The notes beneath the pieces were generated by a model. That model was not told where the DNA came from. It saw nothing but the letters and a program-made list of their open reading frames with translations, and made no database searches. A stretch of DNA of 52,905 nt from Planctomycetia bacterium (lineage in GTDB: Bacteria; Planctomycetota; Planctomycetia; Gemmatales; Gemmataceae), in NCBI GenBank assembly GCA_005772955.1, contig SXID01000159.1, positions 1 to 52,905 of the forward strand, given 5' to 3'. Shown piece after piece: positions 4,055 to 32,616 of this stretch. A program made the translations under genes and the position numbers. How positions within the stretch are numbered: the first letter of the stretch is position 1; each line of letters starts with the position of its first letter.

Positions 4055-4135
4055 AGTTCCAAGTTCCAGCAGTTCCCAGTTGAAACACAGTCAACTGCCT
4101 TTGTCTTCAACTGGGAACTGCTGGAACTTGGAACT
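4055..4135. repeat. Perfect 30-bp inverted repeat (hairpin) upstream of apt
   Basis: Left arm 4055-4084 and right arm 4106-4135 are exact reverse complements separated by a 21-nt loop. The arms contain the sub-repeat AGTTCC. The element lies in the divergent region between the GNAT gene and apt, and its right arm ends 5 nt before the apt ribosome-binding site (AGGAG, 4140-4144). It could be a mobile palindromic repeat or a 5'-UTR structure acting on apt. Confidence 0.9.
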
Positions 4136-7100: not shown

Positions 7101-7428
7101 GCAGAAAAGTTGTTGCCGGGGTAACAGAGTCAGGAGTTACACAGTTGGCTGAAGAACAACCAACTGCGTAACGCCGAGAGCGCTTTCCGGAAATGCGTAG
7201 CACCTCAACGAACCGCGACCGCAAGGGAGCGGCAAAGCTCAACCACTCCCTTGCGGTCGCGGCTCGTTAAACAACGCTACACCGTTCCCAAACGCGCTCG
7301 AATACGCGGTCACTCCAGAGCAAGGGAGCGGCAAAGCTCAACCACTCCCTTGCGGTCGCGGCTCGTTAAACAACGCTACACCGTTCCCAAACGCGCTCTG
7401 TGGGTTCTTGAAACCCGCTTTTGGCGGG
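7101..7428. repeat. Intergenic repeat region with tandem 78-bp copies
   Basis: The 328-nt gap between the receiver gene and a small exported protein holds two identical 78-bp copies, 7222-7299 and 7321-7398 (period 99 nt). Copy 1 is part of a larger imperfect inverted repeat: arms 7207-7229 and 7246-7268 match over 23 bp with one mismatch, and weaker pairing extends outwards to about 7177-7299. The structure resembles a small non-coding mobile element or REP-type repeat with a partial duplication. A short hairpin follows at about 7401-7416. No gene is seen. Confidence 0.9.
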
Positions 7429-8914: not shown

Positions 8915-9010
8915 GGCGCAGTTTCCCCCTTCAAGTTGTGATACAACGTCATGGTACGCAGCAAAGATAGTACGCGTCCCAGCGCTGCCCCGCGAACAGA
9001 GACGACCGCC

Positions 9011-10471
9011 ATGTCCGATCAACCGGCCGTGAGCCAGATCCCGGCACCCACCGCCGAGTCGAAGCGAATCGCGCTGCAGAGCTTCACCAAAGCTAAAGGG
9101 TTGGCCACCGACGGCGGGTTCGATTACGCGATTCAACTGCTCCTTACCAGTTGCCGACTCGACCCGGCCAACTTCTACTACCGCAAGCAACTTCGCGAGA
9201 CGCAAAAAGCCAAGTACGGGAACAACCTTCGCGGAAGCCGGTTCGCGTTCCTCACCACGCCGCGTTGGAAGGCCCGTTTGCGCGTCGCCAAGCGTAACCG
9301 CGAATACCTCAAGGCGCTCGAACACGGCGAGCAGGTGCTGTGCCGCAACCCGTGGGACCAGGGGGCGCAACTGGACATGGCCGAAGCATTCGATGCACTC
9401 GGGCTGTCGGACCTCGCCGTGTTCACGCTTGACCAGGCACGCCAGAAGTACCCCCGGGACGCGACCCTGAACCGCGCGCTGGCACGCCAGTTCGAGAAGC
9501 GTGGCGACTTCCAGAAGGCGATGATCCTCTGGCAACTCGTTCGCGAAACGAACCCGACCGACGTGGAGGCGCAACACAAGGCGAAGGATCTCGCCGCGAG
9601 TTCCGTGATTCAGAAGGGCGGGTACGAGGAAGCCGCGGCCGGCACGAAGGAGTCACCGGTCGTTGGACGCATCGAAGCGCGCGCGACCGAGAAAGCGGAC
9701 AGGATGACACGTGAAGCCGAACCGCTACTGACGCGTATCACGGCCGATCCGACGGAGCCAAGTCTGTACCTGCAACTCGCCAGCGTGTACCGCAAGGGCG
9801 GCCAGAACGACCGCGCCCGCGCTGTACTCCAGCAAGGATTGGGGCCAACCGGCAACGCGTTCCAGATTCAACTCGAACTGATGGAACTCGACCTCGTCCC
9901 GGTCCGCAAGAACCTCGAACACGCCGAGGCAAGACTTCTCAAGTTGAAGCAGAAGACGCCCGACGACGACTCCTCCGCGATCGTGGAGGAGGTGACCGAG
10001 GCGGAACTCGTCGCGTTACGGGCAAATCTCATCAAGGAAGTGAACACCCGCGAGATCGAACTGTTCCGCGTGAAGACCGACCGGGCGCCCAACGAACTGA
10101 GCCACCGCGTCGAACTCGGGACGCGGCTCTTGAAGGGCGACCGCGTGGACGAGGCCATCGCCGAACTGCAACTCGCCCGCCGCGACGACCGCCTCAAGTG
10201 GCGCGCCGCGTTGCTATTGGGCATGTGCTTCAAGAAACGGAACAACTGGCGGCTCGCACAGCGTAACTTCGAGGAAGGGCTGGCCGGCGTGCCCGAAACC
10301 GAGGAACCGGTGAAGAAGGAGTTGCTGTTCCAGCTCGCGAGCGGTGCGGCCGAAAACGGCGACCTCCAGCGCGCGATCGACCTTGGCCACGAACTCGCGA
10401 ACCTCGATTTCTCGTTCAAGAACATCGGCAAGTTGCTCGACGAGTGGCACGACCGGTTGCAGTCGGCGTGA
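9011..10471 (+). CDS. TPR-repeat protein
   Basis: A soluble protein of 486 residues from this start, made almost wholly of helical pairs with tetratricopeptide spacing (AEAFDALGLSDLAVFTLDQARQ, RALARQFEKRGDFQKAMILW, LASVYRKGGQNDRARAVLQQG, LLKGDRVDEAIAELQLA). No signal peptide is seen, so a cytoplasmic scaffold role is likely. A second ATG at 8951 would add 20 residues; 9011 is preferred because the extension is low-complexity and falls in the divergent promoter region. The stop is followed within 5 nt by an inverted repeat that may end the transcript. Confidence 0.85.
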   Translation: MSDQPAVSQIPAPTAESKRIALQSFTKAKGLATDGGFDYAIQLLLTSCRLDPANFYYRKQLRETQKAKYGNNLRGSRFAFLTTPRWKARLRVAKRNREYLKALEHGEQVLCRNPWDQGAQLDMAEAFDALGLSDLAVFTLDQARQKYPRDATLNRALARQFEKRGDFQKAMILWQLVRETNPTDVEAQHKAKDLAASSVIQKGGYEEAAAGTKESPVVGRIEARATEKADRMTREAEPLLTRITADPTEPSLYLQLASVYRKGGQNDRARAVLQQGLGPTGNAFQIQLELMELDLVPVRKNLEHAEARLLKLKQKTPDDDSSAIVEEVTEAELVALRANLIKEVNTREIELFRVKTDRAPNELSHRVELGTRLLKGDRVDEAIAELQLARRDDRLKWRAALLLGMCFKKRNNWRLAQRNFEEGLAGVPETEEPVKKELLFQLASGAAENGDLQRAIDLGHELANLDFSFKNIGKLLDEWHDRLQSA

Positions 10472-10476
10472 CACAG

Positions 10477-10560
10477 GGATGAGGGATGAAGGATGAAGGA
10501 TGAAACTAAGACAGGAGACGGCGCGCCCGCCGGTTCTGATTCATCCTTCATCCCTCATCC
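10477..10560. repeat. GGATGA-type inverted repeat spanning a gene start
   Basis: Perfect 21-bp arms at 10477-10497 and 10540-10560 are separated by 42 nt; both arms are built from the 7-mer GGATGAA. The element starts 5 nt after the TPR gene's stop. The next gene starts at the ATG in the left arm (10493), so the element contributes about 23 residues to that protein. Confidence 0.92.
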
Positions 10561-10870
10561 TTCATCCTTTCATCGTATCCGTCTCGGACCGCCGTGGGAC
10601 GTTGCCCCGCTCACGGGCGGCACGCGGCACACGCGGAAGTTCGGGCACCCGCGCACGCTCGACGCGACCGAGCGAGTCTGGCTCGTGTGCGAACACGTCC
10701 CCGCAAGCGGTGAAGTTCAGGTCAACGCCACGGTTGTCGGAAAGCCGGACACGCCCGGGCCGTTCGCGGCCGACATCACTTCTCTGCTCCGCCCACGCAA
10801 CGAGGTCTTTTTTTTCGTTGAGTCAGAACTACCACTCGGCGCTGTCGCGCTGGAAATTCGACCCGCGTGA
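10493..10870 (+). CDS. Small beta-sandwich-like protein with repeat-derived N-terminus
   Basis: A 125-residue protein. From about residue 27 it resembles the sugar-binding beta-sandwich of glycoside hydrolase family 2 proteins (RIRLGPPWDV, RKFGHPRTLDATERVWLVCE, VNATVVGKPD, FAADITSLLRPRNEVFFFV). Small stand-alone proteins of this kind occur in planctomycetes; the match is by eye. Residues 1-23 come from the inverted repeat at 10477-10560. The only possible start is the ATG at 10493: the codon two before it is TGA, and no ATG, GTG or TTG follows in frame until deep in the domain. The original start was probably replaced by the repeat. Confidence 0.7.
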   Translation: MKDETKTGDGAPAGSDSSFIPHPSSFHRIRLGPPWDVAPLTGGTRHTRKFGHPRTLDATERVWLVCEHVPASGEVQVNATVVGKPDTPGPFAADITSLLRPRNEVFFFVESELPLGAVALEIRPA

Positions 10871-10958: not shown

Positions 10959-10985
10959 TTGACTGCCCGACTTGTGAACTAGATT
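10959..10985 (+). promoter_or_regulatory. Possible sigma-70-type promoter for the FHA gene
   Basis: TTGACT at 10959-10964 and TAGATT at 10980-10985 are 15 nt apart, which is shorter than the preferred 17. If used, transcription would start near 10992, which rules out the earliest frame start at 10984 and supports a start at 11050 or 11119. Confidence 0.3.
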
Positions 10986-11118
10986 GGCGAGAGCGAGCAC
11001 GTTGGCCGTGTCGCGAGTATCGGCCCGAATCGTGGGGCACAGCGATCCCATGCCGACTGCCCTCCCGATTCGCTCGCCGGCCCTACCCGGCCAGTTCACG
11101 CGTACTGCGGACCATCCA

Positions 11119-11532
11119 ATGCACAAAGTCGATCTCCACCCGGTTCACGCCACGATCCCCGCGACAGACCGCGCCGACCACACGCCGACGGCACCCGTCG
11201 TCACGACTGTGAAGCCGAAGTTAGTCGTGCTGCGCGGAAGTAGGATTGGCGTTGAGTACCCGCTCTACGAGGGCAAGAACGTCGTCGGTCGCTTCGCGGA
11301 TAAGCCGGTTGACATCGACCTCATGAGTCAGGAATCGGTCGAACAGATTTGGTGTTCGCGCCAGCACGCGACGCTCACGTTCGAGAAGGGGAATGTGGTG
11401 TTGGAAGACCTGAACAGCCTGAACGGGACGTGGCTCAACGGGATGCGCGTCCACGCTGGTCAGCCGCGCCCGGTGAAGCCCGGCGACGTGGTGCAGATCG
11501 GCACCATCCAGATGAAGCTCGTCATGGGATGA
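11119..11532 (+). CDS. FHA-domain protein
   Basis: A 137-residue protein with a single forkhead-associated domain (about 48-135): GR at 57-58, SRQH at 80-83 and the N-G pair in NSLNGTWLNG are the phosphothreonine-binding signature. It would bind phosphothreonine partners made by Ser/Thr kinases; one such kinase is encoded at 38464-41148, though no direct link is shown. The N-terminal 30 residues are low-complexity. The start is uncertain: ATG at 11050 or 10984 would add 23 or 45 residues of unconserved sequence. Confidence 0.85.
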   Translation: MHKVDLHPVHATIPATDRADHTPTAPVVTTVKPKLVVLRGSRIGVEYPLYEGKNVVGRFADKPVDIDLMSQESVEQIWCSRQHATLTFEKGNVVLEDLNSLNGTWLNGMRVHAGQPRPVKPGDVVQIGTIQMKLVMG

Positions 11533-15087: not shown

Positions 15088-15178
15088 GGGTGGTCCGCTC
15101 GCTCCGCGCGCGGTGTGACGCAGCGCGAAGGCCGTCAGCGCGGCCAGAGCAACCGCTCGCGGAGCGAGCGGACCACCC
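15088..15178. repeat. 21-bp inverted repeat next to the beta-helix gene stop
   Basis: Perfect 21-bp arms 15088-15108 and 15158-15178 surround a 49-nt GC-rich loop. The right arm ends 5 nt before the last base of the minus-strand beta-helix gene (stop at 15184-15186). It may act as a terminator or a 3' mRNA stabiliser, or be a mobile palindrome. Confidence 0.9.
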
Positions 15179-32524: not shown

Positions 32525-32616
32525 GAAGGCGAGCGGGGGGCGTAAGCCCCCTGATGGTGTCGTGGTGTGTGTCGTTCGTCGAAGCATCAGGGGGCTTACG
32601 CCCCCCGCTCGCCTTC
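32525..32616. repeat. Perfect 32-bp inverted repeat overlapping the desaturase stop
   Basis: Arms 32525-32556 and 32585-32616 are exact reverse complements with a 28-nt loop. The core GGGGGCTTACGCCCC matches the element at 18829-18918. The right arm supplies the TAA stop (32596-32598) and the last seven codons of the desaturase. The left arm starts 6 nt after the stop of the surface-protein gene, so the palindrome sits between two convergent genes. Confidence 0.95.

Follow-up and report, generated by a model that had tools for sequence, protein, structure and literature searches.

A small gene in the planctomycete genome studied here has probably had its start codon captured by a multi-copy repeat element that resembles REPs and heptameric tandem repeats, a reading that we hold with moderate confidence. 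The gene, whose product is similar to the N-terminal domain of GH2 enzymes, lies in a stretch of 52,905 nucleotides (contig SXID01000159.1 of assembly GCA_005772955.1, positions 1 to 52,905), called the window in what follows. A hairpin of inverted GGATGAA/TTCATCC heptads would have come to occupy the short spacer between a TPR-repeat gene and the small gene, both of which run in the same direction, and the native ATG would have been lost at the right border of the element. The small gene would now be read from an ATG in the left arm of the hairpin, giving a protein in which an intact domain is preceded by 25 additional residues. Ribosomes that finish the TPR gene would re-initiate at this ATG, which is a likely route since a GAGGG motif stands 7 nt upstream of it and the TPR stop codon lies 21 nt before it; the stable hairpin would have to be held open by the ribosomes of the TPR gene or by early initiation during transcription. 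The coordinates of the features involved are collected in Table 1.

Table 1. Features at and around the junction between the TPR gene and the small gene (positions in the window)
Feature	Position	Strand	Remarks
Upstream gene, TPR-repeat protein	8951..10471	+	506 aa; stop TGA 10469-10471; TPR_19, E 4.4e-13 (Pfam)
Heptad hairpin (inverted GGATGAA/TTCATCC)	10477-10567		Spacer between TPR gene and gene for 100-residue jelly-roll domain
Hairpin 5' arm	10477..10504	+	GGATGAG followed by three GGATGAA units
Shine-Dalgarno-like GAGGG	10481..10485	+	In heptad arm, 7 nt before ATG 10493; direct reading
In-frame TGA	10487..10489	+	In heptad arm, two codons before ATG; direct reading
Inferred start codon	10493..10495	+	Only in-frame ATG; supplied by repeat
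ORF, 125 codons	10493-10870	+	Starts in hairpin left arm
Repeat-encoded 25 residues	10493..10567	+	MKDETKTGDGAPAGSDSSFIPHPSS
Hairpin loop, 35 nt	10505..10539	+	Contains AAGACAG, present in L115 copy too
Hairpin 3' arm, TTCATCC heptads	10540..10567	+	ORF frame reads FIPHPSS
Site of lost native start, now TTT	10568..10570	+	ATG in 12 of 15 genus orthologues, window counted
Jelly-roll domain, GH2 N-terminal-domain-like	10568..10870	+	100 codons and stop TGA; fold and family matches
In-frame GTG within domain	10685..10687	+	Codon 65; implausible as start of the domain
Downstream gene, FHA-domain protein	10984..11532	+	ORF from first possible start; PF00498, E 1.2e-16

The hairpin and the frame it opens

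Each arm of the element holds four heptad units. The segments 10477-10497 and 10540-10560 pair at 100%, and the full arms, 10477-10504 with 10540-10567, at 93%; RNA folding of 10465-10580 gives -63.2 kcal/mol, as opposed to -33.5 +/- 3.9 for 200 shuffles (z -7.7). The sequence GGATGARGGATGA is matched six times in the window with at most one mismatch, where 0.08 matches are expected and none of 100 shuffles reaches six, and hairpins scoring at least 16 number six in the window and zero in two first-order Markov copies of it. The repeat arms that an earlier note had described from the letters alone are thus real. The search of the window against Rfam at gathering thresholds yielded 0 matches, and a role of the hairpin as terminator or promoter was dropped, the scan having returned no promoter and a single terminator match, which lies in the loop and equals the chance expectation of 1.0.

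The unit itself is suited to both ends of a gene. GGATGAA contains ATGA, a stop overlapping a start, preceded by AAGG; in the left arm TGA and ATG recur at 7-nt steps, such that three units bring them into all frames, and the TTCATCC right arm is free of stops in all three. Given these properties, the element is able to end an upstream gene and to begin a downstream one.

Direct reading bears out the position of the ATG within the left arm and of the TGA two codons ahead of it, both of which had been remarked upon before. The companion statement, that the frame offers no alternative start, is correct for the whole domain and too strict to the letter: further in-frame codons of the ATG/GTG/TTG/CTG/ATT/ATC/ATA set are GTG 10685, CTG 10784 and 10850, and the very rare ATC (10550, 10577, 10775) and ATT (10856). 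Between 10496 and 10684 the frame holds no ATG, GTG, TTG or CTG, and GTG 10685 comes 39 codons into the 100-residue domain, past three predicted strands and within the fourth, so the whole domain could not be made from it. That the whole domain can be produced only with a repeat-encoded N-terminus is likewise supported by comparison, the native ATG having become TTT with none of these four codons left between the repeat and domain codon 40; translation from 10493 is what we infer from this.

Initiation at a non-standard codon just past the repeat, for instance the ATC at 10577, would leave the element with the sole role of shaping the mRNA leader. This ATC is in frame and adjoins the old start, a conserved gene of the L121 type in the relative G001 is devoid of ATG, GTG and TTG around its N-terminus, which indicates that unusual starts may exist in the genus, and initiation downstream of N-terminal REPs has been argued to be usual in some species (PMC3733652, in the sections available). 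The REP argument, however, needs a usable downstream start, and here none of the four codons ATG, GTG, TTG and CTG occurs before 10685; beginning at 10577 would moreover cut two of the four residues from the first predicted strand. We consider this route very unlikely.

Loss of the native start among orthologues

Orthologues of the small gene were found in 15 of 19 genomes of the genus, that of the window counted. Their alignment, which the earlier note had proposed as a check, confirms the loss: the codon aligned to 10568-10570 is ATG in 12 of the 15, the exceptions being TTT in the window, ACT in G004 and GTC in G013, where an ATG lies four codons upstream of the aligned column and there is no hairpin. 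The closest relative, G001 (89-90% identical), also lacks a hairpin and has its ATG 24 nt after the TPR stop; in 10 of the 15 genomes, window counted, the end of the TPR gene was located, and 24-545 nt separate it from the orthologue downstream. The repeat in the window ends exactly at the old start position, where the start is absent.

Outside the genus, the start is usually found one to four codons upstream of the first column of the genus alignment. Eight non-genus loci have an identifiable TPR end, and since the start of the small gene overlaps the TPR stop in some of these, as ATG in L100, L109 and L110 and as GTG in L103, the pair looks translationally coupled there; for the window we would suppose the same. 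The non-genus locus L101 lacks a start both in column 1 and immediately ahead of it, and no heptad hairpin was seen there; such losses are therefore not tied to repeats alone.

The codon that follows the native start encodes His in all 15 genus members, as CAT in the window and in G004 and as CAC in the other 13; outside the genus, the conserved His is CAT at 3 of 15 loci. The presence of CAT in both captured cases weakly suggests that the junction rewrote both codons. Two substitutions, a 4-nt deletion from CATGCAT to CAT, or repair of the junction within TCAT words would each fit as the route by which the native ATG was lost, with insertion of the element as the presumed event.

G004 provides a parallel. 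A different heptad hairpin, with GATGAAC units, occupies the same slot, the native start codon is ACT, and the frame is open back to an ATG in the left arm, with MNDESRTEECPPPGVPPFIVHRSSFIV preceding THSIRL. The two events are apparently independent. Overall, six of the 15 genus orthologues carry a hairpin scoring at least 14 in the 220 nt before the gene, and two of these six have lost the ATG, numbers that are small; G015, G016, G002 and G012 have hairpins of other sequence in the slot and keep the native ATG. The remaining nine, G001 and G008 included, have no hairpin scoring at least 14 in those 220 nt.

These comparisons bear on a less favourable interpretation, in which the element destroyed the start and the small gene is now silent, a young pseudogene whose frame has not yet decayed. 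The native ATG is gone and the new start region lies within a hairpin of about -56 to -63 kcal/mol, so stable that initiation could be blocked; arms that are still 93-100% complementary imply an element that has diverged little, so that the event may be recent. Several other copies, described below, are also entered by an open frame that their gene does not need. Against silence, the 100-codon frame is intact in both the window and G004, both retain every invariant column of the 15-member alignment to which they themselves contribute, and the same outcome has been reached in two species with different hairpins. Hairpin-encoded N-termini of another gene (see below) that look like working signal peptides also speak against it, and we find a silent gene unlikely.

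A free-standing jelly-roll domain

Read from 10568, the small protein is predicted to be a jelly roll (pLDDT 95.9) whose first strand comprises residues 2-5. Foldseek matches it to 7kgz, the N-terminal domain of a GH2 beta-glucuronidase (E 5.7e-6, TM-score by query 0.82). The domain was assigned by fold because the Pfam search with the 125-residue ORF gave no match up to E 1; with E values up to 0.1 allowed, PF22666 matches 10 of 15 genus members, at best with E 5.7e-4, and the window's own sequence is not among them. The galactose-binding-like jelly-roll fold of a GH2 N-terminal domain is present and the TIM-barrel catalytic domain of a GH2 enzyme is absent, the ORF consisting of the 100-residue domain and the repeat-encoded part only; the domain thus stands alone, between the TPR and FHA genes.

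Between the window and G001, dN/dS of the domain is 0.127 over 97 codons, which points to constraint on the domain, in a figure that spans the entire time since the split from G001 and not specifically the time after start loss. Codon changes that could be polarised on the window branch amount to five amino-acid and nine synonymous ones.

Copies elsewhere in the genome

A pattern search allowing up to two mismatches gave 59 matches at 20 separate places of the 5.93-Mb genome, that of the window included; six of the 19 genus genomes contain exact three-unit matches. Of the 19 other copies, 18 were read and one (L126) was left out as it runs into a contig end. Genes around the copies were called by open frame length and a GC3 rule, without annotation, and element borders were set by hand and may be off by a few nucleotides.

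Fifteen of the 18 copies sit between co-directional protein genes, a proportion (15/15, or 16/16 with the window copy) that exceeds the background, since neighbouring genes are co-directional in 26 of 47 cases in the window and in 77 of 113 in one G001 contig. In all 15, the upstream stop codon starts between -17 and +14 nt from the element edge, and in 10 it lies partly or wholly inside the element. Eleven of the 15 have a start 1-20 nt beyond the element; the comparison with orthologues in G001 or G015 covered nine of these (all except L115 and L129), and each of the nine aligns from that start. An open in-frame ATG within the element is also present in 4 of the 11 copies whose gene keeps its start after the element, and since the frame is there open into an ATG that is not needed, an open frame alone is weak evidence of capture.

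Two of the 18 copies lie in frame inside ORFs, the frame being open over 888 codons in L119 and over 935 in L127, where it is still open when the stretch ends; we take the L127 ORF to be Ser/Thr kinase-like and the other to be DUF1549-like. At L112 (2020-2108), a copy takes up almost all of the spacer that separates tRNA-Glu from tRNA-Leu in an array of 16 tRNA genes.

Element-free sites exist, for example the L128 slot in G001 and G015. Target-site duplication was rejected, as direct repeats flanking the 19 copies average 1.6 nt and are shorter than those at random places (2.8 nt). A Y1 transposase beside the element was also rejected: the genome has eight Y1_Tnp matches, six of them above the cut-off, and the 2.0-3.3 kb surrounding each of them contain no GGATGAA array; action in trans is conceivable. 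Around Y1-transposase matches, L063 and L068 contain several related hairpins of other families, which are possible REP-like partners.

Different hairpins at the same slot

For each of the 18 copies the two flanks were joined and searched for in G001 and G015. The slot counts leave out L115, which had no target, L123 and L130, for which each G001 stretch held a single flank, and, in G015, L113 (one flank). Where both flanks were found, a hairpin is present in 10 of 14 slots in G001 and 8 of 13 in G015, as read by eye and with some hairpins imperfect; the G015 slots L125 and L129, imperfect or long, were not counted. Three of the ten G001 hairpins have the same or a similar heptad and seven a clearly different one (including GAGTGTT, GTGTTTG, GAGTGAT and AAGGCGG). 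The last codons of the upstream genes are usually conserved, and the stop is often formed together with whichever hairpin comes next: at the L120 slot, TAG stands before GGATGAAGG in G000, TAG before TGTTTGGTG in G001, and TGA before GGAGACAGG in G015.

Part of this slot re-use is background, because hairpins are widespread (one G001 contig with 114 called genes has 29 in 119.5 kb); alignment of the whole window to the G001 contig C2, considered as a larger baseline, was dropped since synteny is only local. What remains may reflect either a preferred target, that is, hot-spot insertion, or a conserved function. The latter would be expected if the hairpin were kept as a regulatory RNA structure, such as a processing site, a stability element or an attenuator, with start capture as a side effect. 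The slot frequencies in G001 and G015, set against 29 hairpins per 114 genes, favour such a role, as does the location of REPs and heptameric repeats elsewhere, most of which follow a stop codon, together with their presumed or observed transcription (PMC3733652 and PMC4692102, partial texts). Hot-spot insertion, however, explains the re-use equally well, nine of the 15 genus orthologues of the small gene do without a hairpin of the score given above, and the only terminator match, in the loop, is at chance level. A regulatory RNA as the main explanation seems to us somewhat unlikely, and capture of the start by the element remains the preferred reading.

Other hairpins were noted as well. A heptad-like one with AGTTCCA units (window 4055-4135) lies between two co-directional genes, at a place where the matched flanks are about 11 nt apart in G001, and hairpins of other families at 32525-32616, 15088-15178 and 7207-7367 lie between genes called convergent. 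Different heptad hairpins occupy the same in-frame site, between DIKPANILL and PKVSDFGLA, in L127 (1978-2070, G000) and L182 (G015), in a gene that is presumably Ser/Thr kinase-like; the best G001 match, possibly a paralogue, has no hairpin at that site.

Other genes with possible starts in hairpins

The genes beside three further copies were compared across those genomes that have matches (19 of 19 for the L121 gene, 15 of 18 for the L114 gene, 17 of 18 for the L113 gene), with partial or paralogous rows dropped. The L114 gene is the most informative. In G000, G015, G001, G004 and G008, the starts in the approximately 110 nt before its domain lie within a hairpin, in the arm or the loop; part of the loops in this slot may be native DNA and not repeat, and in the G008 orthologue one start is a loop ATG that may be native, the frame being open further upstream. 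The five N-termini reach a peak hydropathy of 1.99-2.58 and are signal-peptide-like, as in MKDEFRTRTIRSRRAWLFCLLFILHPSSFIL before the mature part, and hairpin-free orthologues reach 1.82-2.42 (four hand-chosen of ten). Nine other element-encoded peptides, those of the window and G004 among them, stay at or below 1.32. Net charge does not separate the peptide groups, some of the other element peptides having +2 or +3. The N-termini encoded by the L114 hairpins look like signal peptides, and they offer the best indirect support for the translation of repeat-encoded N-termini. In L114 and its orthologues L219, L223, L230 and L233, the right arm reads FILHPSSF in or beside the hydrophobic core in four genomes.

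The other candidates are less clear. The L113 gene, which we take to be MFS transporter-like, was rejected as a case of start capture: a GTG about 42 nt before its domain is probably native because it recurs in orthologues without a hairpin. L121 and L124 were dropped as clean captures in the window's genome, as a TTG across the element border could serve. In G015, the only start of the L121 gene is a GTG inside another heptad hairpin, and no clear native start is seen across the genus. The gene beside the L121 slot in G001 (L172/L200) is conserved, yet ATG, GTG and TTG are all absent around its N-terminus; read by eye, an ATT lies a few codons before the aligned region.

Relation to known repeats

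The comparisons in this section draw on those portions of the cited articles that were accessible. Heptameric tandem repeats of the GGGAATC type have been described in Xanthomonas and Nostoc (Rehm et al. 2015, PMC4692102), where they prefer gaps between co-directional ORFs: the repeat is on the sense strand when it follows a stop, which it may overlap, and on the antisense strand when it precedes a start. Pairs of facing repeat sites, which form inverted repeats, number 70 and 75 in the two Xanthomonas genomes. The element described here shares with them the tandem 7-nt units (at least two) and the co-directional, stop-adjacent position. It differs in that the arms of the copies read here are inverted and in that GGATGAA lies outside the G-quadruplex type of GGGNATC repeats, because neither it nor GGATGAG holds a regular run of three or more G. 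The accessible text of PMC4692102 mentions no native start that was lost, and no slot shared by several unrelated heptads in different species.

As described by Di Nocera et al. (2013, PMC3733652), REPs of the GTAG and CGTC superfamilies are short palindromes close behind stop codons that often supply the TAG, with some lying at N-termini or inside ORFs. The present element is similarly palindromic, lies close behind stop codons and often contributes the stop. Unlike REPs, it has arms made of heptad tandems, and its ends, judged by eye, are mostly AAGGATG or GGATGA and carry no regular GTAG/CGTC tag, with GTAG spelled at the L120 junction by a T of the gene and AG of the element. The stretches around the eight Y1-transposase matches hold no heptad array; a RAYT (Y1) transposase may act in trans. 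Most N-terminal REPs of three species are suspected to be non-coding because shorter homologues exist (PMC3733652); at the small gene, in contrast, the downstream start has been lost.

Rickettsia palindromic elements (RPE) are in-frame palindromic insertions in proteins (PMC10969869, PMC2229807, PMC3733652), and PMC3733652 cites reports of in vivo expression for N-terminal RPE-1 cases. The in-frame copies L119 and L127 resemble them; RPEs, however, measure about 150 bp and belong to ten other sequence families, whereas the element lies mostly at gene junctions, with 2 of 18 copies inside ORFs. With bacterial MITEs (PMC10969869) it has in common small size, multiple copies, terminal inverted repeats, in-frame fusions and the lack of a transposase gene; unlike MITEs, it shows no target-site duplication, and no parent insertion sequence was found, Y1_Tnp being the one type sought.

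REPs behind stops, stops supplied by REPs, N-terminal REPs, heptameric repeats between co-directional ORFs and in-frame RPEs are therefore already described in the available text of these sources (PMC3733652, PMC4692102, PMC10969869, PMC2229807). The literature searched, as far as these texts extend, yielded no case in which a heptad hairpin stands where two species have lost the native start, and none in which unrelated heptad hairpins replace one another at a single stop. Among the titles listed, none deals with heptad hairpins of Gemmata or with a bacterial repeat that takes the place of a lost start codon, which is weak evidence given that most subscription journals lay outside the search; the portion of PMC4060949 at hand mentions no such heptad repeats.

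Implications

Fusions of palindromes to bacterial N-termini have been suspected to be misannotated starts, the normal start coming after the repeat, as argued for three species in the accessible part of PMC3733652. The case of the small gene helps to separate such annotation error from real start capture, because relatives show the former start that is now gone, with an apparently independent recurrence.

A broader proposal, which we put forward tentatively as possible, is that across the genus inverted heptad hairpins act as interchangeable stop-start cassettes, whose unrelated families swap at operon junctions, repeatedly take over downstream starts and even build signal peptides. As 7 is not a multiple of 3, gain or loss of a heptad shifts the frame: were the proposal true, gain of one heptad in the 3' arm would place the small gene in frame with the ATG at 10500, and loss of one would leave it with no open start. 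Captured genes could thus be switched on or off by repeat number, since such changes move or remove the open start.

Junctions that carry different hairpins at the same stop codon constitute a natural experiment, in which the movement of repeats, their settling between the genes of an operon, and the passage of a noncoding hairpin into coding sequence can be compared between relatives. Such repeats may write new beginnings onto proteins.
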